The position numbers and the translations under genes are program-made. The notes below the pieces were generated by a model. The model was given only the letters and a program-made list of their open reading frames with translations. It was not told the DNA's origin and did not search any database. Shown here one piece after another: positions 6,001-49,203 of a DNA stretch of 64,000 bases. The first letter of the stretch is position 1. The number at the start of each line of letters is the position of its first letter. The stretch comes from Xestospongia bergquistia (taxonomy: Eukaryota > Porifera > Demospongiae > Haplosclerida > Petrosiidae): the NCBI GenBank assembly GCA_963965975.1, contig OZ014419.1:5483677-5547676 (forward strand), read 5' to 3'.

Positions 6001-9000
6001 TTTAAATAAACGTTATTGTCTTGTTACAACAAAAATGTACCATGCTGGTCATAATATTATGTTAAATGTGATGAGGATATATACATTGTGTTTTGTTTAG
6101 TTGGCATAATAATTAATGTTAGAACTTTATTATATGCAATTTAATTTTATCTTTCATTTTTAGTGTAGATTAAATCTTGTTCTGCTACAAATACTTGACT
6201 AGAGCTATGTTCAAAACTGCATTGTCTGAGGATGACTGATAGTATTTAATACTAAAAATATAGGCAAAGAAGCAGATAATGAGACACTTCAAGCATGATC
6301 AATCATATCAATCATTGTAGAACTAATGATTAATGTTAATAAATTTACTGGTTGCTATATGTGTCAGTCACTCTTCACTTTTAATTGTCACATACAACAA
6401 TATAACTTAACAAAGCAAGTTGAAATGCAGACATAAAAATATAGTTAACATATGATCCAAAGCCATTATTAATACTGTGTGTCCGGCAGCAAAAATGCTT
6501 ATAAGACTTCAAATGAATGAGAAACAATATAATGATTCATATTGAGCAGGTATTTTATTGGAAAGGTATGCATTATCATCAATTTTGACACACAGGTACA
6601 CAATAGAAGATGAAGATTAATCATATACTTTTGGTTAGAGTTTGTGTTATATCTTTCAAAGTAAATCCTAGAATATTCTCATACATGGATAATAAGGTTT
6701 TGAAATGGAATCGAATCGCTTGTTTAAAATAAGCATGCATGTCATTGATTTTTAGAATTCACTAACATGGAAAAGAATTTGCCTTCTCTACTGATATTAA
6801 AATTTATCTTATACGAAGTTGTATCAATGCTAACCTACCATTGCCAGTTAGTAATAACTGTATTTTTTAATATCTAGCCACTAAAACTTTCGAAGTTGCA
6901 GAGCAACAATTTTTATTAGGCAGTCTATGTGATTACATAAATATACCTATATTTAAGAAAATGTTGACATAATACTCTTCAAAGACTGCATGAGTAATGA
7001 TAATTTTAATTATAGAAAAGTAGTTGTAGTTGTGATTGATTGTTGTTTAAGCAAATGTAATGGTAATGTTGAAATGATCAAATAATTGTAATGTAAACTG
7101 ATAAAATTGAGACTGTAATGGCGATATCACTAGTATTTAGTATAGTAAATATTTGATAGTAACCTCATCAACAGTATCTAGATTAGCTCCATTATTAATC
7201 AAATGTACAGCAACTTCAGTTTCTCCATATTGAGCAGCATAATGCAAAGGAGTCAAGTTGATCTGAAGAGATTGGCACATTAATAACACAATACAAAGTA
7301 CACGTAATACATGTACATAGACTGTACTGGTAAAGTATGTTGACTAATGCTTTAAATTGTATCACAGTATAACTAATTATTAAAAAAATGTAGGTGTAAT
7401 ATGATGATATAAGTTTGATATTACTGATTTGTTATCATAGATTTATTTGTACCATACAGTAACATGATGATGATAACAGTTAATTATATAAGAAACATTA
7501 GACATTTAACATGAGCTCTACTAGTGTTGTTTTACTTGAAGTAAAAGTAATCTTAGTACTTCATTTTTATTTTAGTTCCAGTCAAACTAAAGGTACTAAT
7601 ACTGTATTAAAATGATTTCAATTCAATTTACTAAAAGTGTCAATGTTGAATCAGATATTTATTTCTGTGGTGCCTTAGTAGGTAGTGATTTGGGGCCTGT
7701 ATTTATCTAACCCTGTAGCAATTAAAGTATTTGTCCTGTACTGTAGTTGTAGTGGTTTATATTTGGACAAGGTGGTGTATCAAACAACGCTATACAGAAT
7801 TGAAGACAAATATTTAGCACATTATTGTGTTATTATATGTCTTGTGTATGATTACAATGAATTGTTGATCTGGTCTCTGTGTCTAATTTACTTTATATAT
7901 ATGCGCAAATTAAAGTATAGATGCATAATTAGTGAGATATACTATATACATAAAACTGGCTTGTCTCCAGAACATGCTAAAAAGTAGTACAAATATTATA
8001 TGTTTCTTGGCTAAGAAAGTTTTGAATTTTGTAGGAATACTATATTGAAGATATACTATTGTAATTGCATAGCTTTGTTAAGGTTACAATATCTCACTTT
8101 AGATCCGTCACTGACTTGACGTAAGTTTAATAAAGAAAGTATGTCAGTTCTAGAATGTATTTAGTCACTGACAGTAATAATACTTTTCATTTAAAAAAAT
8201 GCTTGAATGATAACTTCTATTGATACTTAGTAAATGAAGCTAGGCAACAAGATCATTATATACACTGTCAGCATGACAGTGAACTAACTTTACACTTTGC
8301 TATTGAAGAGCTAAATGTTGTCATTCAACAATATCAATTACTATTATTTAGTGACACTTTCAAACTTGTGCATTAGTGTTGATAGCTTTATTGTAATTGT
8401 TTATATCTGTTAATTGGTTTGTCATACAAAGCAGTTCTTATATTGTATTTCTACTACAGTTTTATGGTTATATCTATGTAATTGTAACTATTTTGTATCC
8501 TTTATCCGATTAACATATTGGACATCAAATAAAAAAGAATTAAATATAAAACTTGTATAATAACCTTCGTAACAAGTATTTTTTTATTGTTACTAAGAGC
8601 ATATTGATTGTGTGTGTAACTAATTGACACTTAAATGTACGTAAAGGCAATGTCCCTAACCAATCAAACATTTTTTCAACTAAGCAGTCTTGTACAATCT
8701 AAGCTGTCTATAGCAATGCTTGTACCATTGAAAGATTATTAGGATTATCTTTTTAGTTAAAAAGTTTGAATATGCAAAGTAAAGCTTAAATGGGTGCTAG
8801 TCATTTAGTACCATCAAGCAATATATTGATATCATATAACATCCTCCATATTACAAGTACTATATACAGTTGACTTGTTAAGAAATTAAATAGACAATTC
8901 CATCTTTGACTACTAATCAGAAATATCTATATTTGTGTGTGATCTTTCACTACTCTCAATATAACCTCCAATATAACCTAAGTACAGTGTATACATTATG

Positions 9001-11440
9001 TGGATTTATAAACATTATTTTTTGGTATTTGAACACTCACCTTATTGGTGGCAATTGAGTTACCACCACTTTGTAATAGGAATGATACAACCTCAATCTG
9101 TCCATATTGAGATGCAGCAATCAGGGGTGTTGCCTGCAATTATATAAGAGTAGATGATAATTTTTATTATTAACAATGATATTTTCAAAATGTAGATATT
9201 GTATAATTAATTATTGAAATTTGTTTTAAAGATTACATACAATATCACAATAGTATCCATACTACAGTAGTTACTCTTTTGAGAGACCACCCTCATATCC
9301 AACAAAATTAATAGTGGTTTCCCAAAAGAGGTGGTCTTCCACTAGAGGTGGGCAAGGTAATGGGTTGGATCAATTTTTAATCATGAGAAAAATGTATGTA
9401 CATTTATTTAGCTCTAATAATTCTACTTGGTAGTTCTACTTTAGTTAACTACAACTGTAAGTCATATGATATGCAATTATGTGCATGCATTGTATTTTAC
9501 ATGCAATTTACACTTCTAATGGTCTTAAAAATGCACAATGTTAGTGGTCTTTGGGCTCTCAAAAGATGTGGTCTTTGACTAGAGGTTGTTTTGTATTGCA
9601 ATGCATCCGTACACACAAATTGTGGTCTCTCAAAAGAGGTGGTCTTGCATGGGAGTGGTCTCTCAAAAGAGGGAGTACTGTATTAGTATATTACTGAAAT
9701 ATTAGTTGTTATAAACTATGTTGGTTATACTCAGGTAATAAATAATAATTATTAGTTAATGTTATTACAAATGCATAGTTCTCATTACATATCTATGAGC
9801 AACTTACAAGATATGGACCTAACATGATAGGAAAGATATGTGATAACGTTACTTTACATCCTTACTAATTACATTTAAAACATTTGTTAAAATTTTTCTA
9901 TATTGAGATCAAAACAACAATCATTCATCTGGGTGTCTAATAGTTGGTGACTCTTTAGCTGTTACTAAGGACTTATTATATGATATTTGATTAGTTGTTG
10001 CATTATAGATATTATTTGTTTTTTGTTGTGATCTTAAGTATTTGCTGTCCATACAAAAATAAAGTCTATTATGTCCTTTACCATTTGATAGCTATCTAGC
10101 TAATTCACTTCTAATATTATTTACTATACAATTATAGTTAGTCTGTGGATCTGTTAACATTAGAAGTTTTGATGTACAATTATTGGATTGGATTTGTATA
10201 TAAAAGATAACTTTTATATATGAAATTACAAACTTAATCATTTTAACTGTGATAAAAAATTATTCAAATTATTAGTAGGCTAGAATATTGCTATATTGAA
10301 ATGTGTGAACAAGCAAATAGATTTTTTGTGCAAATGTATACAACTATAATAAACACCTAATTATGATTCTCATACAAGATACTAAATAGTGGATAGTTTC
10401 GAAGTGAGATGATTGTTTATATGAAGTAAAAAATATACAACATTGTGAAACATTAATCAAATCATTAGTAACCTAACATGATATAGAAAACATGTGACTT
10501 TACTTTACATACTTTATAATTAAATACTTTTCAATTCATTTATTGAATTTATTGCAACTGCAGAAATTATTCCGAAGATTTTAACACAAGTCTATTATAC
10601 TATTGTTTTTGCTGACTATACTGGTTATGAATGGATAAAAAATAAAAAATAGTTTTGATTCTGAAGTATAAAGTTTGGAATACAGTAAACCTAAGAACAC
10701 TCTAAAAAATATTCATGATCTAGGCTTCTGTTCGGAATTTTAATAAACTACTCATACTAGACCTTTATCAGCATTCTGGTAGATTATGAATTTATAAGTA
10801 GAGTGAGTGTATGAATATGAGTGTGACATATTCTCTTGTAATGAATCTACAAATTGGCGAATTAATAATAATATTTCCATAATATAGTTCCTAGAACGTT
10901 TGTAGAGTCAGGAAAAATGTTTTTGAGGAGCCATTGTATAATAAAACTTCATTGACAAAACATTATATAATAAATTAATGCAAACATGTTTGGTAGGCAT
11001 AACCATTGCCACACCTACTTTTGCAGAAAATCAAAGTAAGCAACAAACGTGCTTATGTCATAGTACACACTTAGTCTGAACTATTCCTTCACAGTCAGTG
11101 TCTTTTAATTTAATCACACATCATAAGAGTTAGCTAATTACCATATCTGGATTATGATAGTTTACATCTGCTCCTTGCTCAATAAATAACTTGACTTGTT
11201 TGATGTCTCCAGCACTAGCTACCAAGTACAGCTGTTCATTCTATTATAAATACAGACATGTATCATCTACTTGTAGTATAGTGCTTATTCAGATGAGCCT
11301 TGTAAATAAAGAGCATTTTTAGAAAGATATTCTGTCTATACAATAATACTTTTATATGAGTTTAGTTAATATCAGAGATATATAGATATGATGACATAGT
11401 AATAGAAAGATGATAGACTTACAGGCTGTTTTTGAGACAT
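1..11440 (-). CDS. Ankyrin-repeat / P-loop protein, 3' end cut by window
   Basis: Multi-exon gene with exons at 11440-11423 (ATG), 11240-11142, 9133-9041, 7262-7164, 5302-5204, 3348-3250, 866-817 and 513-1. All junctions are GT-AG and phases agree. Residues 7-169 form five ankyrin repeats, each on one phase-0 exon (99 bp, one of 93 bp), with the usual TPLHxAA and LLxxGAN patterns; a short sixth piece follows. A Walker A motif (GPPCVGKT, about residues 215-222) starts a nucleotide-binding domain that I associate with sponge ankyrin/P-loop proteins of unknown role. Function is inferred as protein-binding repeats plus a nucleotide switch. An in-frame TAA at 200-198 (after about residue 290) interrupts the last exon, but the same frame stays open for about 65 more codons to position 1. 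So it is a nonsense allele, a pseudogene or a sequence error. Confidence 0.8.
1235..1360. repeat. Foldback inverted repeat (MITE-like) in intron
   Basis: Two arms of roughly 55 bp pair around a short centre near 1283-1308. Matching blocks include CATATTTCTTAATT and GACTATTAGCAG on the left, with their reverse complements on the right. It lies in the AT-rich intron between the 866-817 and 3348-3250 ankyrin exons. No coding capacity is visible. A small foldback/MITE insertion is the simplest reading. Confidence 0.6.
1500..7300. repeat. Diverged tandem duplications of ankyrin exon plus intron
   Basis: Intron sequence around 1680-2470 recurs at about 4140-4520 (for example the stretch around GATGAAATGTGA and TATTGGAA, and the block near TGTAATAT). 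A further block at about 4950-5050 recurs at 6745-6835 (AATTCACTAACATGG and following bases). Each unit carries one 99-bp ankyrin exon (3250-3348, 5204-5302, 7164-7262). The repeats in this protein therefore appear to have multiplied by genomic tandem duplication of exon plus intron. The copies are well diverged. Confidence 0.65.
4590..4990 (+). mobile_element. Decayed gypsy-type gag relic
   Basis: With stops and frameshifts, the plus strand reads as a Ty3/gypsy gag fragment. There is a segment like SASETVSEYLDILKKL at about 4600-4650, then DSIKAAEKDIQ at about 4765-4800, then a zinc-knuckle-like CIVCGKSN at about 4870. It is antisense to the host ankyrin gene and lies within its intron. No LTRs were seen. 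Identity rests on pattern resemblance only. Confidence 0.5.
9263..9682. mobile_element. MITE with CAGTA termini and TA target duplication
   Basis: The left end (CAGTAGTTACTCTTTTGAG, from 9265) is the inverted counterpart of the right end (CTCTCAAAAGAGGGAGTACTG, ending 9680), and each is flanked by TA. CAGT termini with a TA duplication are typical of Tc1/mariner-type elements. Internal copies of GGTCTCTCAAAAGAGG-like sequence also occur. About 420 bp, no transposase. It lies in the ankyrin gene intron between the 9133-9041 and 11240-11142 exons. Confidence 0.65.
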
Positions 11441-12120
11441 CTTTAAAGTGTATTTCCTTTAGCTGGCCACTATCTCTATTTTCAAGTTCCTAGGTACTAT
11501 AGTAATACGGGAAGAAAGTCAACTAGCTAGATAGTAGTAAGTACTACATTCAAATAGGGAACTCTACTAACTAAATCAACTGTAATCAAATTATAGGAAG
11601 ATGAGAGTATACTGTCTGTCAACTAACTCAAAAATGATTGGTTGATTTAAGCAGTACACATAATGATTCATGAAACTGAAAGTAAACATCATGCTTTTGT
11701 TATTGCTATCAGATCCAGTGGCTGATCAAGAAATTCCCAAGAGGGGGTGGAATTAAAGTAAAACTCTGAAACTCCATGAAGAAAAAAAATACATGTAGCA
11801 CTACACTTTTGATAATGCACTGCAGCAGTCAAGTTTACTGTTAACTTCAAAAATGATCATGTATTTACACTTAAGTTGACAATGACTTGCGAAAATTTAA
11901 CTGCATGCATGACTGCCTGATTGTTGGAACCTAGGACTTCAGTATACTTCAGGTTACTACATGTGTTTGTGCAGCTGTGACTAAGTGTCCTCAGTTCATG
12001 TCATTGTGTCATGGGAAAGTGGAAAATGAAAAGCAGCAATGGTACTAAAGACATCAGGTCTTTATTTACCAGTCAAGCTCAACATCAGTACATGTTGTAA
12101 TAATAATAGTTATGAATTGA
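11441..12120. other. Intergenic: 5' side of ankyrin gene, nothing recognised
   Basis: Upstream of the ankyrin gene start. AT-rich, with no convincing ORF, RNA gene or repeat identified. The promoter of the minus-strand gene should lie here, but no motif stands out. Confidence 0.5.
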
Positions 12121-12129
12121 TTATTATAG

Positions 12130-12650
12130 TCAATGATCTTCACAGGCCCATGATTCAGAGTTGCACTCATCTCGGTCTACTATTAATAATGACTTATCTA
12201 GTACTAGTAATTCACTGTCACAAGAGTTTCCACATGACAGTTTACAAGATGAAGATATATTAGTATTGGTAACAGTATACCTCAGAGTCCCCAGCAACAT
12301 AGGAATACAGGAGACAGTACATCCCAAATTCCCCAACAAGATACCAGTGAGGATGATCTTGGTACACCTATGATCACAGGTGATAATGATGTCATTACTG
12401 CATCAGGATCAGGAATGGCACAGTGTTCCAACTCATGTGAGGAAAATTCAAGCAATGTAATTGTTTCACCTTGCCACAATCATCCATTAAACCTAATAGA
12501 GGTAGCAATTCAAAAAACCAGTGCTAACAGAGTCTGAAAAGTACAAACTTCTTACTACATCACCGAATGAAAAAATTCCACACAATCAAACCTCAAGCTT
12601 GGATTACAGATATTTTCCTTATAAAAAGGGTAGGGTAAACGGCGATTAAA
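12130..12650 (+). pseudogene. Decayed coding-like stretch, possibly zinc-finger/hAT-type
   Basis: The plus strand carries a Ser/Thr/Gln-rich open stretch (about 12145-12260, then another frame 12264-12500), broken by at least one frameshift. A segment reading ESEKYKLLTTSP follows at about 12530. The last part resembles the region before TTF/MYM-type zinc fingers in hAT-like transposon-derived proteins, but this is weak. No start, splice structure or termini could be defined. It may instead be a lost exon of an unknown gene. Confidence 0.3.
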
Positions 12651-13949
12651 TGGACGGGTCCTTTTTTCAGACGCAATACATCAGATAATACATCAGATCT
12701 TCAACTAAAGACAACAGATACTCCAGTTTTCAATAAACAGATTGAGTTTATTGTATGTATATTAGGAACAAACCATGTCTATCTGTCAATTTCTATGATG
12801 ATGGTAAGTGAATAGATGGATGGACAGATGGACAGATTGATAACAGTCATATGAAAGAATAATCTACTTATAGCCTTATTCTGACTACTCCTTTGAGGAA
12901 TTGTGGTTCTATCACATCTATGTTCCTAAAGTATTAGGGTGAGTAGTACACATGTATATGTGTTACATCTAATGTATTTTCTCTTACTACAGGAGTGTAG
13001 ATTATATGCCTGTTACTTCACATAAGAATGGTACATATACTGTGACATGGGTACCAATGTTAGCTGGTTCTTATGATATACAAGTATGTATTAATGGATC
13101 AGTAGCAGTTAAAGCAAATAATTAAATATAATTGTCATTTTCCAAACTATCCCTAACAGTGTGCTAAGATTGATGGCTCCTCTCAATATATGTATATATA
13201 CATTGATTTACATGTACATGTTATGCACCAACTATCCCCTTCCACTCTTGTTATATGATTTACATGTCTTCTATTTTAACAGGAGATGGCCAAACTTATA
13301 ATGTCCTTCCTCTGGAGACATCATTTTAGGAGACCAAAAGAGAGAGTGAGAAAGTTCACAACAACCATAAATGATAAAAAAAAATAGTAGACTCATTGTA
13401 GAAGTTGTTAAAAGAAGATGTTCATAGGATTGAAGGCAGCTGGTCTGAGAATATGTATCTTTTGCAGCTCCTTCTATTGCACTGATCAAACCTGGAATGG
13501 TCTGTCATACTCAGAGAAGTAAGTCATGTGATAGTCAAATAACAAGATGTTGTTATGTTAACAACTTGATAGTTACATCATGATATCTCACAATGTCATG
13601 TGATAATCATGTAATCTCCTCTCTAGATGTACAATACATAGATAACTATCAGATTGATGGATAAGACATGCATGTTACTAATGGACAGAATACTTAACAC
13701 AGGAGTAAATGAACAATGCATTTTTATATTTACAGGACACATTAGTGGAGTTAATTATTAACATATTATCTGTTGGTAAACTCAAAGTCTCCTCTAATGA
13801 TTCTATGAGCAATGGCCTGACTACTGAAACCTTCTGAGAATCTCATGATGAACATGTACTATGCCTTATTTTATTACTGTGGTCTACGATAAAGCAATCA
13901 AGATATTTGCAGCCTTCATTCATATTGATAACCAGAGGACTCTGGAGTA

Positions 13950-14022
13950 AGAATGGATGAATAGATGGACGGATGGGTAGATTGATGGATGTATGGGTGG
14001 GTAGATTGATGGATGGATGGAC
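13950..14022. repeat. Degenerate GGAT/GATG tetranucleotide array
   Basis: Run of ATGGATGG/TAGATTGATGG-type units. Similar arrays occur at about 24780-24850 (mirror position in the other arm), 25680-25790, 26285-26410 and 27360-27490, always within the MYCBP2-like copies. Confidence 0.7.
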
Positions 14023-14968
14023 TTAGATTTTTAAAAAGAGGAATGGATTTATAGATGATTGGACAAAGAGATATGTAGATAAGTAGTTAGTATTTCTATC
14101 TACTAGTCATGATGTTTAAAAAACTCTCATTGTACTTGAAGTTGATGAACAGTGTAAAATTGTGCATTTAGATGGAGTTCAAAATAACATATGAGCTAGA
14201 CAAGTTAAAATAGTGGGTCAATCTGATGAACCTGTTATGAACATGAACTGATGAACCATATATATGCCTGTTCAACTACTACTGTTGCTATGCAAAAAGA
14301 GTGTGAAATTGAGGTACTTAGATTATTATTGATTTCAATGGTAAGGAAATAATTCATATAATTTATTCACTTACTTATCTATCCATCTATACATTCAGAT
14401 ATTTGGTGGTCTCCTTTGTCTATCACTCAATCCAAAGAAAGAGAAAAAGAGAGATTCTGTTAATACAAGATCTCATCTCTCTTCTACACACTGCTTCTGC
14501 TGGAATTAAACTTCAAGTAAGAAAGCAGATATGTTGAGTAGTCCCTGTTGTTCATTCATCTATCCATCAATTTATTCATTCATTTACCACTGTATTTAGC
14601 TGTTTATTTATTTTGCAGTTTATCTCCTGTACCATAACTTCCATTAAAAAATCCAATTATCACATACATATGCGTGTACTATTATAACATGTATTTATTG
14701 TTTCAATTTCCATTAGGTATATTCTCTATTACAACGTATTCTTTCATATATTAAACCAAGAAACTTTGTTACAGTGACTGACCACTCTGGATTACAGTGC
14801 TATAACTGAGGCAGTTAATTCAGGTGCTACTATCAATCAACTTGGTCTCCTAGACTGTTATTGATAAAGTGCTGTCTATACAAGTTAAATTGAAGGAACA
14901 GAGCTAAAATATATGCAGGTTAATATGCCAATTTATGCATTGAAACCACCACTTTTATATACAATGTC

Positions 14969-16174
14969 CTGTCATGGCAATTATTATCCTACCTAAAATT
15001 TGTCTGACCAGATAAAATATTGCAGAATTATTTTATCCAAGGATAAAATATTGCTGCACGATTTTGTCCTATCTGCACTAAATTTATCCTAGGATAATAA
15101 ATTGCTTGGAATATTTTATCCTAGGATAAAAAATGGTTTGCAATATTTTATCCTAGGATAAAAATGGTTTGCTAAATATATTTTATCCTGGGGCACTAAA
15201 TGACTTGCTATATTCTTGTCTAAAAAATATAACTTCTTATATTTTATATTATATTTTATGTTAACATAAACTTTTTTTGTCTTTGTTGGAGGGTTGATAA
15301 TGTCAGTATATTTCAAAAACTGTAATAAACTATTGAATTTCTCTGTTTTGGCCACTTGTCAACAATTTAGAAAGACTCATTCTCATAAAAATCTGTGGCA
15401 AATGTGACTTCTATGAATATTGTTCATAATTTTACTCAGTAATGATCATTACTTTGAATAGAGTTTCAGCAGCACCATAGGTAGGCATGGGAATGGCCTC
15501 CACGCATTTTGTAAAATTATCTGACACAGTGATGATTCTCATTTCTATATGTTGGAGATATTGGGCTGACAAAGTCAATTGCCACATGTTACCATGGAGA
15601 ATATACTGATATGGTATGAAGCTCATTGTTTTGGTGATTGGGTTTTGTTCATCCTCTGACATTTATTAGAAGTAGAAATCTACATATCTTGATATAAAAC
15701 AACACTAAATTTTAAACAAACCTAACCACTTTTTGGCATTAATTCATGTCCCTTTCTACATAAATCATTCCCTATTTCGTCTTACAGTTTTCTTAAGCCT
15801 CATATGTCCCAATGTTGGATCAATGTTGGAAAGTTTTCTGCCTTTTTACTAATTATTCTTTTCCTAGTTGAACTGGCTCCATCTGGATATGTCTTCTCTG
15901 ACACATAAAAAGAAGCTTCATCAATTATATATAGCTCGTTTCCTCAGACATACTTTCTTTTTCCAGCCAAATCTTGACAAATGTGAATCTCTGAGCAGTA
16001 TATCATGTGTCAAAAAGACTTGCATCACTTATTTTACTCAGCAAAGGACTCTTTGTTCAGTTTGGGGAGATATCGACGCACGCAGATATAACATTGCAGG
16101 GAAGGATAAAAAACAACAAGCAATTTTTAATCCTAGGACAATAAATTCCGTAGGATAAAATATTGCGTGACAGT
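14969..16174. mobile_element. Non-autonomous DNA transposon, left-arm copy
   Basis: Ends are CTGTCATGGCAATTATTATC and, inverted at the right, CTGTCACGCAATATTTTATCC, so short terminal inverted repeats are present. Near the ends lie several copies of the palindrome TTTATCCTAGGATAAA. The related locus at about 32085 lacks the insertion, which pins the boundaries and gives a 2-3 bp target duplication (TC or TCC). Inside is a minus-strand integrase-like fragment (15662-15432). There is no transposase of its own. Superfamily not determined. Confidence 0.65.
15432..15662 (-). pseudogene. Gypsy integrase core fragment inside transposon
   Basis: A 76-codon open stretch includes RIITVSDNFTKCVEAIP, matching the conserved strand around the second beta-strand of Ty3/gypsy integrase cores (DYFTKWVEAIPLP pattern). 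The mirror copy at 22983-23213 keeps the more canonical form. Too short to function; probably captured by the surrounding element. Confidence 0.55.
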
Positions 16175-17286
16175 CCAATAATGTTGTCAGTTAATTTGCC
16201 CAATGTCACTTAGATGAATAAAGTTCCACCATACCTAGTGACTAATGCATTGTTTGTACATGTACATAATATAAAAATTACACATACTAGTGATATATTA
16301 TAACTATTTGTTATTTGTATCATTACATTAGAAACTCACTGGTGATAATGCTGTGGCCGCAGTGAGACTAGAAAGGCTTAAAGATCGCAAACCTGTTGTA
16401 GGTGAGGCTCATGTTAGAGGTCAACATTGGTATCTACAAGGATCCATTGAACAAGAATTAGTGATAGATATAGTTAATCTAGTCAAAGATATGATGAAGG
16501 TATAAACATTAGCATGTGTACTTATAGATGTATAGGTACATGTACATTTTTGTACTTGTTACTAATGAAGGCCAAATAGCATGTAGTCCTTTAAAGACTA
16601 TTTCTATTTTGAAGAGCCTCTATTCCCTTATTCATAGTGATCTTTATCACTTTAATTGAAATTGTATAGAATATAATTATAAATATATAATAAGTAGTGT
16701 CTAATGATCTGTGAATTATATTATATTATATTATGACCTATCTCTTTATATAGTTTGTATTTAAAGGTCAATTGAAGGATTATGCTAAGTCAGCTATTGG
16801 ACAAGTTTTTATTAAAATTGACAAATGAAAATGAAGAAGCTTGTAATGCAGATTCTGGAATGTATCCCACACACAGATGACTATCAGACTATTAGTGGAA
16901 TTAATTATTAACATTATCTGATGGTTAAGTCAATGTCTCCTCTAATGATGCTATGAGCAATAGTCTTAGTAATGGATCTATTGAAACTTTCTAACAAGAA
17001 AATCACTCATTTCCACTTCGAAGTTATATATTTGCTAACATCTAATAAAGAGGATTGATTTACTGTTACATCATTCATTCATCTATCTATCCATTCAGGT
17101 ACTTGGTGGTTTTTCCTGTTATCTACCACTCAACCCAAAGAAGGAGAAAAAGAAGAGACAGATTTTAACTTAGAGCAAACAGAAGAATAACCGTCTTCAA
17201 TTACAAATGTTATCTTTAACAAGAGTCATCTCTGGTCTAATAAAGGCAGTCTGTCAACATATCATTGACTCTGTTTTACACAGAAT

Positions 17287-17399
17287 CCCTAAACCCTATA
17301 CCCTAACCCTAAATTCTAGCCCTAAATCCTAACCCCAAACCCTAAAACCCTAACCCTATCCCCTCAACCCCAAACCCAAAAACCCCAAACCCTAAACCC
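17287..17399. repeat. Telomere-like CCCTAA array (left)
   Basis: Degenerate CCCTAA, CCCTAAA and CCCCAAA units on the plus strand, so the G-rich strand points left, out of the palindrome. It sits between MYCBP2-like arm sequence and the minisatellite. Interstitial and imperfect, not a live chromosome end in this assembly. Confidence 0.85.
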
Positions 17400-18512
17400 A
17401 GCCATAATAGGCCAGCTTCTCCCAGCAACGAGAGCCCACCTTTCCCAGGCAAATAGGCCCCCTTCTCCCAGCAACGATAGGCCACCTTCTTCCAGCCACG
17501 ATAGGCTCCCCCCCCCTTCTAACGACGACGGGCAACCTTCTTCAAGAAACAATAGGCCCCCTTTCCCCAGCGACGATAGGCCCCCTTCTCTTAGGACGAT
17601 ATGTCCACCCTCTCCTAGGCGCAATAGGCCACCTTCTCAAGGCACAATAGTACCCCCTTCTCCCGGCGACGATAGGGCACATTCTCCCAGGCACAATAGG
17701 CCCCCCTTCTCCCAGCGACGGTAGGGCACCTTCTCCCAGGCACAATAGGCCCCCCCTTCTCCCAGCGACGATAGGCCACCTTCTCCCAGGCACAATAGGC
17801 CCCATTCTCCTAGCGACGATATGCCACCTTCTCCGAGCCACAATAAGCACACCTTCTGCCAGCGACGATAGGCCACCTTCTCTCAGGCACAATAGGCCCT
17901 ACTCCCAGTGACGATTGGCCACCTTCTCCCAAGCACAATAGGCCCCTTTCTCCTAACGACGATGGGCCACCTTCTCCCAGGCACAATAGGCCCCCCTACC
18001 CCCTGAGACGATAGGCCACCTTCTCCCAGGCACAATAGGCCCCCTTATCCCAGCGACGATAGGCTCCCTTCTCCCAGCGTCGATAGCCCGCCTTCTCCCA
18101 TGCACAATAAGCCTCCCAGTGACGACAGGCCACCTTCTCCACATCACAATGTGCCCCCTTCTCCCAGCGACAGTAGGCCACCTTCTCCCAGGCACAATAG
18201 GCCCCCTACTCCCAGCGAAGATAGGCCTCCTTCTCCCAGCGACGATGGGCCACCTTTTCCCAGGCACAAGAGGCATCCATTCTCTTGGCGACAATAGGCC
18301 ACCTTCTCCAAGGCACAATAGGCCCCCTTCTGCCTGCAACAATACGCCCCATTTCTCCCAGCCACGATAGGCTACCTTCTCCCAGAGACAATAGGCCCCT
18401 TCTCCCTGCAACACTTGGCCCCTTTTTCCCAGTAAGCCCCCCTTCTCCCAACGACGATAGGCCACCTTCTCCAAGTCACAATGTGCCCCCTTCTCCCAGA
18501 GACGATAGGCCA
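17400..18512. repeat. 24-bp GC-rich minisatellite (left arm)
   Basis: About 46 tandem 24-bp units starting CCTTCTCCCAGCGACGATAG, alternating with a variant CCTTCTCCCAGGCACAATAG. Because 24 is a multiple of three, all six frames stay open over long stretches. The sequence composition is quite unlike the AT-rich surroundings. It directly follows the telomere-like array. Confidence 0.9.
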
Positions 18513-18519
18513 CCATCAC

Positions 18520-19056
18520 AACTGTTCCATCTTATTATTAGCCACTGGTATATATTGTTTACAAGTTCACATTGAGAAGCATTGTTGAGGATTTTCCAAT
18601 ATATCATTTCAGATAATGTTTTTTATATATTGCTGTGTATAAAAGTAGATGATATTCTTATATCAATATTATTAGAATATTTTCAGATAACATCCATATA
18701 ATTCTCAGTCATGCATACAGAAATGATTTAGAATACTTTCAGGGTACTAGGTAATGTAATGATCTGTGACTGATGTTGTGTTTTCTGTAAACAAGTCTGT
18801 CCTGTTGATCAGATTTGGTGTGCTCAGGGGGTAGTTGTTACACACATTCAGTGTAGTTACTATGACAACAATTAATTCATTCTTGCACAGTGATTACAAC
18901 AGATACAAATGATCATGATAATTTACTATGGATACCTCTCATTAATCATTGCTATGGTTACCTTCTCTAGGATGACACAACTATAGGATCGCACAAAGGA
19001 TAACTTGATTGATTATTATATAAACAGAAACTTCATCAATTTAATGTTCCCAGAAT
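18520..19056. other. AT-rich spacer, inner left arm
   Basis: No gene or known element recognised. It is nearly identical, in reverse complement, to 20069-20610. It joins 28S sequence abruptly at about 19056. Confidence 0.6.
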
Positions 19057-19253
19057 GTGCCCGAGAGGGTGAGAGCCCGTAGGCGCCCAGGAACCTGGAT
19101 TGGCGGGACGAGGGTCAGGACTCGTGGAGTCGGGTTGTTTGAGATTGCAGCCCCAATCGGTTGGTAGACTCCATCCAAGGCTGAATACGTGCGCGAGTCC
19201 GATAGCGGACAAGTACCGTGAGGGAAAGGTGAAAAGCACTTTGAAGAGAGTTC
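19057..19253 (+). rRNA. 28S rRNA 5'-region fragment, plus strand (truncated)
   Basis: Contains the conserved eukaryotic large-subunit stretch around domain D1-D2: GTCGGGTTGTTTGAGATTG, the ACTCCATCCAAGGCT segment, and GACAAGTACCGTGAGGGAAA followed by TTGAAGAGAG. The sequence stops matching after GAGTTCG at 19253, where it meets the opposite-strand fragment. It is an inverted duplicate of the start of the minus-strand fragment and cannot form a complete rRNA. Confidence 0.85.
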
Positions 19254-20069
19254 GCCTCCGACGGGTCCACTTGCTCTCACTTCGCCTCCGACGGGTCTCT
19301 CGGGAACGCGAACGGACACAGCCGAACGTTCGCCACCCTCCAGACTCGCGTACCTCTTGCACTCCTTGGTCCGTGTTTCAAGACGGGGCACGGGGTGCAG
19401 ACTTGACGCCAGCAACCTAGTCAAGGAACGTGGACGAATCCAGTCGAAGTGCCTGTCGGTGAGGACGCGCCGAACGCTGAAAGTCCCTGAGAACACTAAG
19501 CACCCGGTCACATACCTTGCCCGAGACCCTTCGAACGGAAACAGCCTGAACCGTCACACAAAACGGCGACGGCCCGCACCTCACAACCTCGCCCTATGTC
19601 GCCCTAGACACATCACAGAAAAGCCACGACGCCCGAATCGGAGGGCTATATGTCCCTCTGAGTGCAAATGCCTCCGAGGTTACCTACCCGGCCGACCACT
19701 CTCGGCCATGAGCTACTCCGATGCTGAGGGTCACCGCAGGAACGCGACAATGCACGCCCGTCAGTGACAGACCCACTTAAGGGCCGTCGCCTCGACGGAT
19801 CGATGAACTGGCAGACCCACAGACCGCCTCGACACCCCGAGCTTCCCTTCCAACGGTTTCACTGTCTCTCGAACTCTCTCTTCAAAGTGCTTTTCACCTT
19901 TCCCTCATGGTACTTGTCCGCTATCGGACTCGCGCATGTATTCAGCCTTGGATGGAGTCTACCAACCGATTGGGGCTGCAATCTCAAACAACCCGACTCC
20001 ACGTGTCCTGACACTTGTCCCGCCGATCCAGGTTTCTGGGCGCCTACGGGGCTCTCACTCTCTCGGGCA
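19254..20069 (-). rRNA. 28S rRNA fragment (D1-D3), minus strand
   Basis: Read on the minus strand from about 20069: the same D1-D2 core as the plus fragment, then GTGAAACCGTTGG-type sequence, a variable D2, and CGTCTTGAAACACGGACCAA (the universal C2/D3 primer region) near 19360-19385. It ends in variable D3-like sequence at the fold-back junction. About 0.8 kb of a gene normally 3.3 kb or longer, so a truncated relic. GC content is far above its surroundings. No 18S, 5.8S or ITS was seen. Confidence 0.85.
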
Positions 20070-20610
20070 TGTTCTGGAAACATTAAATTGATGAAGTTGC
20101 TGTTTATATAATAATCAATCAAGTTATCCTTTGTGCGATCCTATAGTTGTGTCATCCTAGAGAAGGTAACCATAGCAATGATTAATGAGAGGTATCCATA
20201 GTAAATTATCATGATCATTTGTATCTGTTGTAATCACTGTGCAAGAATGAATTAATTGTTGTCATAGTAACTACACTGAATGTGTGTAACAACTACCCCC
20301 TGAGCACACCAAATCTGATCAACAGGACAGACTTGTTTACAGAAAACACAACATCAGTCACAGATCATTACATTACCTAGTACCCTGAAAGTATTCTAAA
20401 TCATTTCTGTATGCATGACTGAGAATTATATGGATGTTATCTGAAAATATTCTAATAATATTGATATAAGAATATCATCTACTTTTATACACAGCAATAT
20501 ATAAAAAACATTATCTGAAATGATATATTGGAAAATCCTCAACAATGCTTCTCAATGTGAACTTGTAAACAATATATACCAGTGGCTAATAATAAGGTGG
20601 AACAGTTGTG
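20070..20610. other. AT-rich spacer, inner right arm
   Basis: Mirror of 18520-19056 and almost identical to it. No gene recognised. Confidence 0.6.
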
Positions 20611-20611
20611 A

Positions 20612-21218
20612 TGGTGGCCTATCGTCTCTGGGAGAAGGGGGCACATTGTGACTTGGAGAAGGGGGGCTTACTGGGAAAAAGGGGCCAAGTGTTGCAGGGA
20701 GAAGGGGCATATCATCTCTGGGAGAAGGTAGCCTATCGTGGCTGGGAGAAATGGGGCGTATTGTTGCAGGAGAAGGGGGCCTATTGTGCCTTGGAGAAGG
20801 TGGCCTATTGTCGCCAAGAGAATGGATGCCTCTTGTGTCTGGGAAAAGGTGGCCCATCGTCGCTGGGAGAAGGTGCCCTATCTTCGCTGGGAGTAGGGGG
20901 GCCTATTGCGCCTGGGAGAAGGTGGCCTACTGTCGCTGGGAGAAGGGGGCACATTGTGATGTGGAGAAGGTGGCCTGTCGTCACTGGGAGGCTTATTGTG
21001 CATGGGAGAAGGCGGGCTATCGACGCTGGGAGAAGGGAGCTTATCGTCGCTGGGATAAGGGGGCCTATTGTGCCTGGAAGAAGGTTGCCCGTCGTCGTTA
21101 GGAGAAGGGGGGGGCCTATCGTGGCTGGAAGAAGGTGGCCTATCGTTGCTGGGAGAAGGGGGCCTATTGTGCCTGGGAAAGGTGGGCTCTCGTTGCTGGG
21201 AGAAGCTCGCCTATTGTG
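20612..21218. repeat. 24-bp GC-rich minisatellite (right arm)
   Basis: Reverse complement of the left-arm array with about 25 units, so about 500 bp shorter. Unit-number difference between arms is expected for a minisatellite. The open frames across it are a by-product of the 24-bp period. Confidence 0.9.
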
Positions 21219-21220
21219 GC

Positions 21221-21334
21221 TGGGTTTAGGGTTTGGGGTTTTGGGTTTGGGGTTGAGGGGTTAGGGTTAGGGTTTTAGGGTTTGGGGTTAGGATTTAGGG
21301 CTAGGGTTTAGGGTTAGTGTATAGGGTTTAGGGA
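21221..21334. repeat. Telomere-like TTAGGG array (right)
   Basis: Degenerate TTAGGG, TTTAGGG and TTTGGGG units on the plus strand, so the G-rich strand points right, out of the palindrome. Mirror of the left array with closely similar unit order. Confidence 0.85.
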
Positions 21335-22442
21335 TTCTGTGTGAACAGAGTCAATGATATGTTGACAGACTGCCTTTATTAGACCAGAGATGACTCTTGT
21401 TGAAGAGAACATTTGTAATTGAAGACGGTTATTCTTCTGTTTGCTCTAAGTTAAAATCTGTCTCTTCTTTTTCTCCTTCTTTGGGTTGAGTGGTAGATAA
21501 CAGGAAAAACCACCAAGTACCTGAATGGATAGATAGATGAATGAATGATGTAACAGTAAATCAATCCTCTTTATTAGATGTTAGCAAATATATAACTTCG
21601 AAGTGGAAATGAGTGATTTTCTTGTTAGAAAGTTTCAATAGATCCATTACTAAGACTATTGCTCATAGCATCATTAGAGGAGACATTGACTTAACCATCA
21701 GATAATGTTAATAATTAATTCCACTAATAGTCTGATAGTCATCTGTGTGTGGGATACATTCCAGAATCTGCATTACAAGCTTCTTCATTTTCATTTGTCA
21801 ATTTTAATAAAAACTTGTCCAATAGCTGACTTAGCATAATCCTTCAATTGACCTTTAAATACAAACTATATAAAGAGATAGGTCATAATATAATATAATA
21901 TAATTCACAGATCATTAGACACTACTTATTATATATTTATAATTATATTATATACAATTTCAATTAAAGTGATAAAGATCACTATGAATAAGGGAATAGA
22001 GGCTCTTCAAAATAGAAATAGTCTTTAAAGGACTACATGCTATTTGGCCTTCATTAGTAACAAGTACAAAAATGTACATGTACCTATACATCTATAAGTA
22101 CACATGCTAATGTTTATACCTTCATCATATCTTTGACTAGATTAACTATATCTATCACTAATTCTTGTTCAATGGATCCTTGTAGATACCAATGTTGACC
22201 TCTAACATGAGCCTCACCTACAACAGGTTTGCGATCTTTAAGCCTTTCTAGTCTCACTGCGGCCACAGCATTATCACCAGTGAGTTTCTAATGTAATGAT
22301 ACAAATAACAAATAGTTATAATATATCACTAGTATGTGTAATTTTTATATTATGTACATGTACAAACAATGCATTAGTCACTAGGTATGGTGGAACTTTA
22401 TTCATCTAAGTGACATTGGGCAAATTAACTGACAACATTATT

Positions 22443-23698
22443 GGACTGTCACGCAATATTTTATCCTACGCAATTTATTGTCCTAGGATCAAAAATTGCT
22501 TGTTGTTTTTTATCCCAACCTGCAATTTTATATCCGCGTCCGCCCTGCAATTTTATATCTACGTGTGTCGCTATCTCTCCAAACTGAACAAAGAGTCCTT
22601 TGCCGAGTAAAAAAACTGATGCAAGTCTTTTTGACACATGATATACTGCTCAGAAATTCACACTTGTCAAGATTTAGCTGGAAAAAGAAAGTATGTCTGA
22701 GAAAGACGAGCTATATATAATTGATGAACCTTCTCATTATGTGTCAGAGAAGAAATATCCAGATGGAGCCAGTTCAACTAGGGGAAGAATAAATAGTAAA
22801 AAGGCAGAAAAATTTCCAACATTGATCCAACATTGGGACATATGAGGCTTAAGAAAACTGTAAGACGAAATAGGGAATGATTTATGTGGAAAGGTACATG
22901 AATTGATGCCAAAAAAGTGGTTAGGTTTGTTTAAAATTAGTGTTGTTTTATATCAACATATGTAGGTTGCTACTTCTAATAAATGTCAGAGGATGAACAA
23001 AACCCAATCGCCACAACAATGAGCTTCATACCATATCAGTATATTCTCCATGGTAACATGTGGCAATTGACTTTGTCAGCCCAATATCTCCAACATATAG
23101 AAATGAGAATCATCACTGTGTCAGATTATTTTACAAAATGGGTGGAGGTCATTCCCTTGCCTGCCTATGGTGTTGCTGAAACTTTATTCAAAGTAATGAT
23201 CATTACTGAGTAAAATTATAGATCAATATTCATATAAGTCATACTTGCCACAGATTTTTATGAGAATGAGTCTCTCTAAATTGTTGACAAGTGGCCAAGA
23301 CAGAGAGTTTAGATGCCAACTCAAAATTCAAAAGTTTATTACAGTTTTTAAAATATACCAACATTATCAGCCCTCAAACAAAGACAAAAAAAGTTTATGT
23401 TAACATAAAATATTATATAAAATATAAGAAGTTATATTTTTTCAGACAAGAATATAGCAGGCCATTGTTAGTGCCCTGGGATAAAATATATTTAGCAAAC
23501 CATTTTTATCCTAGGATAAAATATTGCAAACCATTTTTTATCCTAGGATAAAATATTCCAAGCAATTTATTATCCTAGGATAAATTTAGTGCAGATAGGA
23601 CAAAATCGTGCAGCAATATTTTATCCTAGGATAAAATAATTCTGCAATATTTTATCCGGTCGGACAAATTTTAGGTAGGATAATAATTGCCATGACAG
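22443..23698. mobile_element. Non-autonomous DNA transposon, right-arm copy
   Basis: Mirror of the left-arm element, with the same terminal inverted repeats and TCCTAGGATA palindromes. It carries the integrase-like fragment on the plus strand (22983-23213) with DYFTKWVEVIPLP intact. Being present at the same place in both arms, it was inserted before the inverted duplication or spread by arm-to-arm conversion. Confidence 0.65.
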
Positions 23699-25080
23699 AA
23701 CATGTACATATAAAAGTGGTGGTTTCAACGCATAAATGGACACATTAACCTGCATATATTTGAGCTTTGCTCCTTTAGTTTAACTTGTATAGACAGCAAT
23801 TTATCAATAACAGTCTAGGAGGCCAAGTTGATTGATAGTAGCACCTGAATTAACTGCCTCAGTTATAGCACTGTAACCCAGAAGTGATCAGTCACTGTAA
23901 CAAAGTTTCTTGGTTTAATATATGGAAGAATACTTTGTAAAAGAGAATATACCTAATGGAAATTGAGACAATAATCACATGTTATAATAGTACACGCATA
24001 TGTATGTGATAATTGGATTTTTAATGGAAGTTATGGTACAGGAGATAAACTGCAAAATAAATAAACAGCTAAATACAGTGGTAAACGAATGAATAAATTG
24101 ATGGATAGATGAATGAACAACAGGGACTACTCAACATATCTGCTTTCTTACTTGAAGTTTAATTCTAGCAGAAGCAGTGTGTAGAAGAGAGATGAGATCT
24201 TGTATTAACAGAATCTCTCTTTTTCTCTTTCTTTGGATTAAGTGATAGACAAAAGGAGACCACCAAATATCTGAATGTATAGATGGGTAGATAGGTAAGT
24301 GAATAAAATTATATGAATGAATAGATGGTTGCCATTGGATGAATGAATGAATGATGTAACAGTACATCAATTTTCCTTACCTGTGAAGTCAATAATCTAA
24401 ATAATCTAAGTACCTCAATTTCACAGTCTTTTTGCATAGCAACAGTAGTAGTTGAACAGGCATAGTAGCAGGTTCATTAGGTATTTCAACTTGTCTACCT
24501 TGTATCTCAAAGTGTACAACTTTATGTTGTTCATCAACTTTAGGGACTATGAGAGTCTTCCAACCTTTATGAATAGTAACCAACTTACACCATAATTAGC
24601 TATTAAAAAGCATTTACAGTAGATGGAAATATTCAGGCTGTCTTTGTCAGGTCTAATAGAGGGAGATAACTATTTTACATGTTTTTATATGAGAGTAGAT
24701 AGAAACACTAAATACTTATCTACATCTCTCACTTCGTCTACTTATCTACAAATCCATTCCTCTGTTTCAAGTCTAAATCAATCTATCTATCAATCTACCA
24801 ATCCATCCATCAATTTACCCACCCATCCATACATCTATTTATCCATTCTTACTCCCAAGTCCTTTGGTTAGCAATATGAATGGAGGCTGTAAATAGCTTG
24901 ACTACTTTATGTCAATCTCATAGTAATAGAATGAGGTTTATCATTATCACATGTTCTTAATAAGATTTTCAGAAGGTTTCAGTAGATCCACTATTCAGAT
25001 TATTGCTCATAGTATCATCATGGTACATGTACATGCAGACAGAAGAACCATCTGTTGAGCTACAGAACCAAAAAGTAACT

Positions 25081-25128
25081 AGAGAGATAGATAGATAGAT
25101 AGAGAGAGAGAGAGGGAGAGAGAGAGAG
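25081..25128. repeat. GATA/GA microsatellite
   Basis: GATAGATAGATA followed by a GA run. A related GA run lies at 27190-27225 in the adjacent tandem copy of the same MYCBP2-like region, and a GT run lies at about 26963-26988. Confidence 0.85.
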
Positions 25129-26514
25129 TATTGTAAAGAATTTAGTGATATCATTACCTCTTCAACAGCAGCTAGAACAATTCTCATATCAGCTTTTTCA
25201 GTATCATTAGGATAAACAGGTAACTCTATTAAAAAAAGAGAGGTCAATCAAAGTACACTAGTCAATGGTAGCACATGGTACATGCAAACAATAATAACTG
25301 GCATCATGTATGGCTCTCATTATTTCACTGACCAGGATATGGAAGGTTAAAATCTTCTGTGAGGATTATACCAGTGCACATAGCTAACTAACTCTTTCTC
25401 CATCAGAGACAAACATTAAAAAGAGAAAACAGTAGTGACATATGTATTATGATCACATAATTCTCACATGACATCTCTATTATGATCACATGATTCTCAT
25501 ATGACATCTCTATTATGATCACATGATTCTCACATGACTATCACCTGTTTGCTATCTCTTGATCATTCTTAACCAATAAGTTGACATTTGATGATATAAT
25601 GATTGGATTTGTCTCTTTTCTCATATTCTGTTTCAGTATTAACTATAATATGTACTTCATTACCTAAATTAAATAAATATTATTATAGATTAATGGATAA
25701 ATGGATGAATGGCTAGATGGCTGGCTGAATGAACAGATAGATGGACAAATGGATGGGTGGTTATATGAATGGATGGATAGTGCTTGAATGAGTGGATAAA
25801 ACAGATAAGTCAAGAAATGGATTATTTTAGTGGTATAAGAAATCAGGAAATACCTGGTATGAGAACCAGTCTAGCAGGAACATCTAATCCAAAGTGTTGA
25901 AATCAGAAATATAGATTGTCTCAATTAATACTATGATACAAAAGTCTCTGTAGTGAGTGGAGCTTCACTATCACTGGCTTTCTTATGTAGAATTAACAAA
26001 CTGGCCACAGTTTGTCTTCTTGTACAACCACATTTAGGTTCAAATTCCAGACTTATCTTCTAAACCTGGTCTGGAAATTGGACTCTGAAATGTGAGGCTG
26101 AGGTTTGTTTGCAATTATAGTAAGATTCAACTAAAACATAATGAGTTAGTTTAGCATCTAAATAGCCATTTCTTTCCCCAAGAAGAATTTAAAGTTCTTA
26201 TACAGTTGAAGATACAACAGAAAGTGTACATTGTACCATAACCAATATTGATAATTATGACTAAATAAAGTAAGGACAAAGTACATTGGTAATTGATGGA
26301 TGGATGGACAGATGAATAAATGAATGAATGAACAGGTCACAGACTTGGATGGATGGATTAAATGATGAATGGATGAGAGGCATGTCACAGATGAACAGAT
26401 GGACAAACAGATACAATACCTTGGGTTGTAGTGAAGCTAAATGAGGTATAGTAGTTGGTAATAAATTAGAGACTAACAGTATCAGTGAATATTTATATTG
26501 TATATCCTTACCTC

Positions 26515-27960
26515 CTACAGTAATTTGAATTCAACCATTCCATTCAAAGTACAAGAGTCAGCTAATGATATAGTCCAATAGAGTTTGATATGACCACAGC
26601 CTTCATGAAGATCCATTTTCACAGCTTCTTTGAACATTTGGAGAAAGATGGAGGTCATTGTCACTCCAACAGCTATGTTCCACATGTCATTCATTGTTAT
26701 CAGTACATTTGTGATAATGTAGTACACGATCACATTCTCCACACAAGTTACCACAATGTTTACATAATATAAGAGCTTTATTTTCACCATCATCATAATT
26801 ATTATATAGAGGTTAAAAGGATGAAAATGACATTGTTATAAATAATTCTCTCTTCCTTAAACATATGAAGTTTGCCATCTTGTCTTACCCATTGTCCCTA
26901 GGAGATAGCAATAGTATGTTCTTCATCAATGACACACAGAGCAGTTAAACATAGCCAGAACTGTGTCTGTGTGTGTGTGTGTGTGTGTCAGATGATACAT
27001 GTATGTATTATATTAGTTACTACTCACAGTATGGAAATACATTCCAGAATCTTACAAGCTTCTTTATTGATCTTTGTCAAATGTAATACAACTTGTCCAA
27101 TAGCTGACTAGTCAACGTGAGATTCCTTTGCATTAAGTTTAGAACAAATATTATGACCACATTGAACAATGCTGTATGTACCAGGACCATCTATAGAGAG
27201 AGGGAGAGAGAGAGAGAGAGAGAATATACTCTAAAGAATTAAGTGATGTCATTACCTCTTGGGCAGCAACACATGGTAAATGTACATGCAGACAATAATA
27301 ACTGGCATCATTTTTCAGCATTAACTATAATACATACTTTGTTACCTAAATAAAATAAATAAATAAATATTATATAGATTATTGGATAAATGGATAGGTG
27401 GCTGGCTTACCAAATGAATGGATAGATGAGCAGATAGATGGACAAATGGTTAGTTGGTTATATGAATGGATGAATGGCGGTAGATAAATGGATAAACAGA
27501 GAAGTGAAGAAATCGATCATTTAGTGACACATGTAATTCAGGAATCAGGATATACCTGGTATGAAAACCAGTCTAGCAGGAGAGTTTAATTCAAAGTGCT
27601 GAAAATCAGAACATCCATCAATTAATACTAATCATTAATACTAATCAGTGGTAATCACTGATGATACAACAGTATCTGTGGAGCTTCACTATCGCCAGCT
27701 TTCTTATACAGAATGAACAAACTGGCCAGTTTGTTTTCTTGTTGTACAAAACCACATTTAGGACCAAATTCTAGACTTGTCCATTGCACCTGGTTAGCAG
27801 CTGAACTCTAAAATGTGAGACTAAGTCTTGTTTGTAAAAATGATCAGTTTCAACTAAAGGAAAATGAGTTAGTTTAGCATCTAAATAGCCGTTTGTTTCC
27901 GAAGAAGATTTCTTTTTTGAAGATACAACATAAAGCGTCCATTGTACCATATCCAATATT
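26515..27960 (-). pseudogene. MYCBP2-like gene fragment, copy 3 (with C-terminal motif)
   Basis: Reading down from 27960: GYLDAKLTHFPLVETDHFYK, an ARLVL-type segment (about 27560), a KGQ/SAIGQVVLHLTK exon (about 27110-27020), then KALILCKHCGNLCGECDR (about 26770-26710) and, after a frameshift, MDLHEGCGHIKLYW and LADSCTLNGMVEF (about 26620-26520). The CxxCGxLCGxCDR plus DLHEGCG pair is what I recognise from the region just before the C-terminal RING of MYCBP2/Highwire/RPM-1 ubiquitin ligases. The RING itself is not seen. The DOC part is missing and frames are broken, so a pseudogene. Confidence 0.6.
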
Positions 27961-28039
27961 GATAATGATTTAGTTTTGATAATTAATTTTTTATTAGTCA
28001 GTTTTCAATTGTTGACAAGGGGTTAATATAAATGTTGCC

Positions 28040-28312
28040 ATGACGACAGCATTGAACTTGGATGACCAAGCATGTCTAGAATACAATTATCTTCTTCACA
28101 CATACATACAGAACTATTTACTCTGTTAGAAAGGTAAGTTTAGCTCAATATATAACTAAAGACTTAACTTGATGTTTTCTTCATCTCTAGAGAGGTAATA
28201 GTTGCTGTCTTAAGAGATAGTATTGATCAGTTGTCTGTATTGAAAGCCATTACACCAACTGTTGGAACTTGGAAAGCCATCAGCTAATGTAGATGTAAGT
28301 ATGACAGATCCA
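28040..28312 (+). pseudogene. Unrecognised gene start, decayed, two exons
   Basis: An ATG at 28040 opens MTTALNLDDQACLEYNYLL. After a frameshift comes TELFTLLER, a good donor (GTAAGT at about 28132) and acceptor (about 28191), then EVIVAVLRDSIDQLSVLKAI and TPTVGTW, and a second donor after ANVD (about 28312). At least two frameshifts break it. It is head-to-head with MYCBP2-like copy 3. An X-box-like sequence (GTTGCCATGACGAC, 28034-28047) overlaps the ATG. I do not recognise the family. Confidence 0.35.
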
Positions 28313-28609
28313 TAATCATATTATATAGTGGTCTATAGTGGTCTAGTTAACAAGACTCCATTCCCCTGTTTGACATAAGGTACTCTATAAGTGAAGTCTG
28401 GTTTGTAAACAACTAATATATACAAATATACAAATGGTGCTATGTTAAGGACTATTTTAGAACCGCTAGCCATTTATAGACCTGACCAACCAACTTGTAA
28501 AGTTCCTAATATACATTACATTTTGGAAAGTATATTTGGTATATTATATTAGTTGCATATATACAACTGAGGTGTGTGATCAGGTGTTGCTACCCAGGTT
28601 ACTAAGAAC

Positions 28610-49000: not shown

Positions 49001-49203
49001 ATACCACTGGTGGGGATCTGACACCACTCTCCTGTTCGTAAATTGTAGACTTCGATCAAAGAGAGGATTTTGATTTTTTCAGAACTGGAATGAATTTTGG
49101 GTACTGGTTTGTGCCATCCTCCCCACAAGTAAAGCCTATCTCCAACAACAATTGTCGAATGACCAAGTCGAGATAATGGCTGATATCTTTTATCTACAAA
49201 CAT
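43075..49203 (-). CDS. Kelch / coiled-coil / TKL-like pseudokinase protein A
   Basis: Seven exons: 49203-48648, 48022-47859, 46184-45984, 45634-45466, 44907-44765, 44712-44560 and 44112-43075 (807 aa, TAA). All GT-AG and in phase. Residues about 1-340 are kelch-type propeller repeats (LYLWGGW, LYYFGGRCGHD, AVVFGGF, LVVGGEN, LVLFGGV). Residues about 412-535 are a Glu/Ala/Lys-rich coiled coil. Residues about 566-807 resemble a tyrosine-kinase-like domain: the VIVKK lysine (about 602) and APE (about 729) are kept, but HRD is HGS (about 690) and DFG is DTG (about 713). Loss of the catalytic Asp suggests a pseudokinase scaffold. No vertebrate orthologue is known to me. Gene B is a paralogue. The start ATG at 49203 is the least certain part; TGTAG just inside it could be an acceptor for an upstream exon. 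Confidence 0.85.
46221..46250. repeat. Perfect hairpin in kelch A intron
   Basis: CCACATTATATTA and its exact reverse complement flank a 4-nt loop. No associated gene. Confidence 0.6.
47040..47400. repeat. Dispersed repeat (second copy near 6170-6520)
   Basis: In order, this segment shares GACTAGAGCTA, CTGAGGA, AAATATAGG, TCACTTT-CAATTGT, ACAATAATATAA and ATATAGTTAACAT with the ankyrin gene intron at 6170-6520. The copies are diverged with indels. No coding potential. Probably an old non-autonomous element. Confidence 0.5.

Follow-up and report, generated by a model that had tools for sequence, protein, structure and literature searches.

How did a piece of 28S ribosomal RNA (rRNA) gene come to lie at the centre of a large inverted repeat inside a sponge chromosome? 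The question is posed by a 64,000-nucleotide stretch of the Xestospongia bergquistia genome, hereafter the window, which spans positions 5483677-5547676 of contig OZ014419.1 (C9; genome 146.5 Mb, 21 contigs) and holds a palindrome at 5.50 Mb of this 7.485-Mb contig in the present assembly. Comparison of the window with itself by BLASTN disclosed two long inverted matches with an E-value of 0.0, 14352-18020/24318-20613 (92.6%, 3733 columns) and 17884-19250/21222-19876 (94.2%, 1373 columns), along with a weaker outer match at 13821-14104/24985-24694 (80.3%). The assembly does contain the inverted repeat, which, as the first-pass annotation stated, closes on truncated 28S sequence. Its best explanation, and in our judgement a probable one, is a fold-back inverted duplication retained in the chromosome: the arms share ancestry next to the breakpoint, they are separated by a single-copy spacer, and the centre carries a locally templated insert.

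Two 28S pieces, F1 and F2, stand head-to-head at the palindrome centre. F1 (194 nt, 19057-19250, plus strand) and F2 (803 nt, 20069-19267, minus strand) both read toward the centre; the Rfam scan of the window returned LSU_rRNA_eukarya at 19371-20213 on the minus strand (E-value 1.1e-33) and no rRNA other than the 28S piece, with neither 18S nor 5.8S. Aligned with one genuine 28S copy from C9 as the reference, F1 has 188 of 194 aligned bases equal (6 mismatches and one gap) and F2 has 740 of 803 (63 mismatches). F2 extends about 610 nt deeper into 28S than F1: its duplicated portion is 20069-19876 and the remainder, 19875-19267, is single-copy, leaving a spacer of about 0.6 kb between the arms (19251-19875) made of a 28S stretch found in F2 only. 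At the inner end of F1 lies a 16-bp insert (19251-19266, plus strand) that exactly copies 19281-19296, 30 bp away, whereas 0 such matches are expected by chance (100 shuffles). F1 and F2 differ from each other at 8 of 193 sites and by one 1-base gap. The part of F2 that overlaps F1 shows 10 differences from genuine 28S, 4 of them common with F1; 2 differences are private to F1 and 6 to F2.

Outward of these pieces, to the left of F1 and to the right of F2, one dispersed repeat (termed E below) meets 28S at an identical position. With the last 542 bases of E as query, 40 matches were found, including 6 of at least 500 bases, all 6 on C9; these comprise the two arms and four other copies, at 4175522, 3320637, 4705660 and 5830667. 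All four of the others continue beyond the junction point in common non-28S sequence, and two more distant E copies also pass into non-28S sequence there. Because the other E copies run into common non-28S sequence, the chimera of E and 28S is derived and, among the compared copies, confined to the two arms. The same behaviour rules out E as a transposon targeting 28S at 19057, since the four other long copies share one non-28S continuation beyond it. The junction letters are AATG in the left arm and AACA in the right; the dinucleotide is TG on the left, CA on the right and CG in genuine 28S, as expected if a single CG had decayed on different strands into its two deamination products.

Several features recur in mirror order along the arms. 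A degenerate telomere-like tract of CCCTAAA type lies at 17287-17399 (plus strand) in the left arm, with its mirror at 21222-21333 (minus strand) in the right, and a 24-bp minisatellite occupies 1108 bp at 17407-18514 (plus strand) and 612 bp at 20613-21224 (minus strand). The telomere-like tracts are internal, not at the ends of a free molecule, and are found in 6 of 7 aligned E rows, both arms among them. The arms are composed of dispersed repeats. Of the mirrored contents listed by the first-pass annotation, the telomere-like tracts and the minisatellite held up; its gene fragments and transposon were not confirmed, as Pfam gave nothing above cut-off in the 5 of 61 arm reading frames submitted. 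A frame at 15432-15662 that resembled a retroelement integrase piece by eye likewise received no support from Pfam.

A chimeric or strand-switched read, or a mirror-image join of two haplotypes, could imitate such a structure. Strand-switched reads produce false rDNA (ribosomal DNA) palindromes, and palindromic rDNA reads are described as a known Nanopore artefact (PMC8559705); the region is repetitive and close to rDNA units, and a neighbour region holds a 200-N run, taken for an assembly gap. The window itself, however, has an N count of 0, and substitutions, indels and an unequal minisatellite length set its arms apart, whereas strand-switched reads would presumably give arms that are alike. 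A haplotype join, which the first-pass annotation had allowed for, should extend past the arms, yet a comparison of 1-13820 with 24986-64000 gave no inverted match at E ≤ 1e-3; this lack of inverted similarity outside the arms, together with outer flanks that are colinear with different paralogues, makes it unlikely. Taken as a whole, we regard an assembly artefact as very unlikely.

How far the duplication reaches can be read from the changing relatives of the two arms. In steps of 100 columns, arm-versus-arm identity is 91-99% at 14349-16092, 99-100% at 16168-17167 and again 99-100% at 18466-18965, with the alignment at 17.4-18.5 kb perturbed by the minisatellite of unequal length; the final three steps to 19264 fall to 96, 94 and 89%, and beyond 19264 the arms cease to match. 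CpG decay explains this lower central identity only in part, as CpG-type changes account for 1 of 6 in F1 and, over the corresponding part of F2, for 3 of 10; within the 28S fragment itself such decay is slight. The left inner arm of E (16150-19056, plus strand) and the right inner arm (20070-22469, minus strand) are 97-100% identical with the minisatellite set aside. Farther out, the left outer arm and flank, an E copy (12686-16149, plus strand), is colinear from 12686 onward with C9:4182014-4175522, and its 14352-16149 part resembles the right arm about as much as it does other E copies. The right outer arm and flank (22470-28531, minus strand), also an E copy, is colinear in pieces with C9:5438302-5444065, with 24443-28531 matching 5440131-5444065 at 89.7%.

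Informative sites refine this picture. Of seven aligned rows, five entered the counts: the left and right arms, and the E copies at 4.18, 5.44 and 4.71 Mb. The remaining two, from 5828 and 5871 kb, were aligned only. When the 4.18- and 5.44-Mb copies serve as references, the sites that pair left with right arm stand to all other groupings as 0:64 at 13786-14188, all 64 pairing the left arm with the 4.18-Mb copy and the right arm with the 5.44-Mb copy; the ratio is 3:2 at 16008-16167 and 21:0 at 16168-17400. When the 4.71-Mb copy replaces the 5.44-Mb copy, the ratio is 1:3 at 13500-14188, 9:5 at 14710-16007 and 4:0 at 16008-16167 (13:5 for the last two together), then 16:1 at 16168-17400 and 12:0 at 18515-19055. 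Inward of about 16.15 kb, then, these counts make the arms clear sisters; outward of about 14.2 kb each arm bears the flank of a different E lineage. At 14.2-16.1 kb the signal of sisterhood is weak, mixed and dependent on the reference copy, and the switch point would fall somewhere in this interval. The 5-kb arms of the first-pass annotation can thus be read as the product of a single event with clarity only in their inner portion.

The inner arms also record a later episode. Only 1 of 1063 positions at 16149-17211 and 0 of 497 at 18531-19027 are mismatched between the arms, whereas the 28S part has 8 mismatches in about 194 (Fisher P 2e-6 and 3e-5, indicative only, the blocks having been picked after data inspection). 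The arms are therefore more alike in these blocks than their oldest part predicts, and the simplest reading suggests later gene conversion between them. Such conversion might even have done all the work: two independent, inverted E copies would have flanked a 28S piece, and conversion alone would have spread the junction of E and 28S and homogenised the inner arms. The two conversion-like blocks are in keeping with this idea, as are outer arms near the paralogue level of similarity and the fact that the first block holds 17 of the 21 left-right sites. F1 and F2, however, lie outside the blocks and still have the common junction and 4 common differences from genuine 28S, and the asymmetric spacer and templated insert are accounted for by fold-back, not by conversion. 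We consider an origin by conversion alone unlikely.

The fold-back origin would run in four steps. The comparison of E copies shows that one of them was fused to a broken 28S gene, by an illegitimate join at about 19056/19057. The form of the central junction suggests that the 28S end then broke again and that its strand, folding back on itself about 0.6 kb away, served as a primer for synthesis, which would have left the 28S spacer and the 16-bp slip-back insert and copied the E-28S junction in mirror image. From the change of relatives it appears that a different E copy then served as recombination partner for the new end, somewhere between about 14.2 and 16.15 kb, whereby the right arm would have acquired a different outer flank and rejoined the normal chromosome. 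Finally, the mosaic of identities suggests that portions of the arms were evened out by gene conversion. The spacer, the templated insert and the copied chimeric junction are what a fold-back model predicts, and they back the breakage and fold-back product that the first-pass annotation had offered as one possibility. The right arm passes into another E copy with that copy's flank, and this change is in line with the yeast pattern, in which recombination with a second copy of a repeat resolves the fold-back.

A number of points weigh against this account. The palindrome is a feature of assembled sequence, and the genuine 28S in the site counts is one copy. With the 4.18- and 5.44-Mb references, left-right sites stand to the others as 8:10 at 14189-16007; the counts are mixed at 14.2-16.1 kb, which makes it uncertain where the duplication ends on the outside, and a portion of this interval may also be shared. 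Conversion alone could have produced 17 of the 21 left-right sites, those at 16168-17166 inside the converted-looking block, leaving 4 outside it. The CpG ratio of F2, 1.05 versus 1.13 in genuine 28S, lends the CpG-decay view of the junction little weight. The spacer of about 0.6 kb is slightly under the range known from human fold-backs, and the order and timing of the first three steps are tentative.

Genuine rRNA genes on the same contig bear on a further explanation. The 28S query found at least 8 further 28S places, all on C9, and the rDNA count is a lower bound. By their matches, two pairs of these places appear to be convergent, with a 295-bp satellite array between the partners, and the other 4 all have one orientation. 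In the pair at 5.83-5.87 Mb, 18S, 5.8S and 28S at 5838.7-5842.7 kb (plus strand) are mirrored at 5862.6-5866.2 kb (minus strand), with an inverted match of 11,090 columns at 98.4%. In the pair at 5.66-5.69 Mb, 18S, 5.8S and 28S lie at 5659.6-5663.7 kb (plus strand) and 28S at 5686.2-5687.4 kb (minus strand), the latter from DNA matches and unlisted by the Rfam scan covering that locus. The palindrome could then be the shrunken relic of such a pair, its upstream parts deleted and its centre collapsed; genuine units are oriented as F1 and F2 are, and E-like repeats adjoin the genuine convergent pairs. An identical deletion junction in both arms, however, would require conversion or two identical deletions, 18S and 5.8S are missing from the Rfam results for the window, and no 295-bp satellite was seen between the arms in the sequence comparisons. 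This explanation strikes us as extremely improbable.

As far as the sequence goes, the palindrome looks like a repair scar in an rDNA-flanking duplication zone of C9, with no sign of function. It also suggests that the chromosome carrying the rDNA abounds in inverted structures. A broader idea, which we hold as speculative and rather doubtful, is that rDNA here forms no single tandem array but is scattered along several Mb of one chromosome as convergent pairs with a 295-bp satellite between partners, that fold-back with homologous resolution among E repeats is the working mode of rDNA multiplication and movement there, and that the window palindrome is a failed product of it.

Other features of the window, whose overall CpG ratio is 0.30, include a diverged monomer of the 295-bp satellite, at most about 85% alike, in the left flank of the palindrome (12873-13155) and an RNase H-like domain of reverse transcriptase at 30367-31059 (E-value 2.2e-32). 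Two protein-kinase reading frames and a Kelch-repeat frame (40379-41710, 43075-44112 and 48595-49260) lie outside the palindrome.

Telomere-type repeats also occur elsewhere in the genome. Wnt genes, which are not known outside animals and so mark the genome as an animal's, are present alongside plant-type TTTAGGG repeats; (CCCTAAA)3CCC gave 1125 and 778 matches genome-wide and (CCCTAA)4 none, and near the start of C2 there are 70 CCCTAAA units in the 500 bases examined. On C1, about 6 kb from the end, a TTTAGGG array follows oppositely oriented CCCTAAA repeats, and the two may form a head-to-head telomere array. TTAGGG is the classic animal telomere motif according to TeloBase, and a literature search on sponge TTTAGGG repeats returned no title reporting them. 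No telomere array was seen in the first 300-500 bases of 4 contigs (among C1-C10), nor at the end of C9, which counts against a TTTAGGG telomere.

Where does the palindrome stand among known systems? In ciliates and slime moulds, amplified rDNA palindromes are extrachromosomal and carry complete rRNA genes. The window palindrome resembles them in that its inverted repeat is centred on rDNA sequence, but it holds a truncated 28S piece within a chromosome; neither arm has complete rRNA genes, and no free molecule with telomeres at its ends is seen. It is not amplified rDNA, and the kinship drawn by the first-pass annotation finds no support. The accompanying remark that such palindromes were not known from animal chromosomes calls for care. 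Human palindromic rDNA units were reported by fibre fluorescence in situ hybridization (Caburet 2005, as cited and disputed in PMC8559705), and an inverted repeat of >100 kb is described at the border of human nucleolar organizer regions (PMC6942050). The latter shares with our case an inverted repeat on an rDNA-bearing chromosome, whereas its arms, as that article presents them, are far longer, conserved and transcribed, and lie beside the rDNA and are not centred on an rDNA fragment. Our literature search returned no title describing a 28S-centred fold-back in an animal, and we make no claim of absence from print.

The closer parallels are fold-backs. Human germline cases, as described by Hermetz et al. 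(2014, PMC3907307), have inverted arms, single-copy spacers of 766-70,466 bp at 21 of 21 sequenced junctions, a local templated insert (16 bp at one junction) and a second event that terminates the copied arm. They are patient rearrangements, mostly large and terminal, whereas the window palindrome is old enough to have gathered 8 differences in about 194 bases and is centred on an rDNA fragment. Yeast foldback structures are reported to be mostly resolved by homology-mediated rearrangement (PMC7467729; similarly PMC3974649), the copied arm switching to another repeat copy and gaining its flank as here; they come from mutant strains under selection, whereas the window palindrome comes from one animal assembly. 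The palindrome is most likely a preserved repair scar, unusual by its place beside ribosomal genes and ordinary in kind. We know fold-back duplications chiefly from yeast mutants, patients and cancer. An animal chromosome seems to have kept one here in which the chimeric junction, the spacer, the templated insert, the change to a different repeat partner and the subsequent conversion can all still be read.

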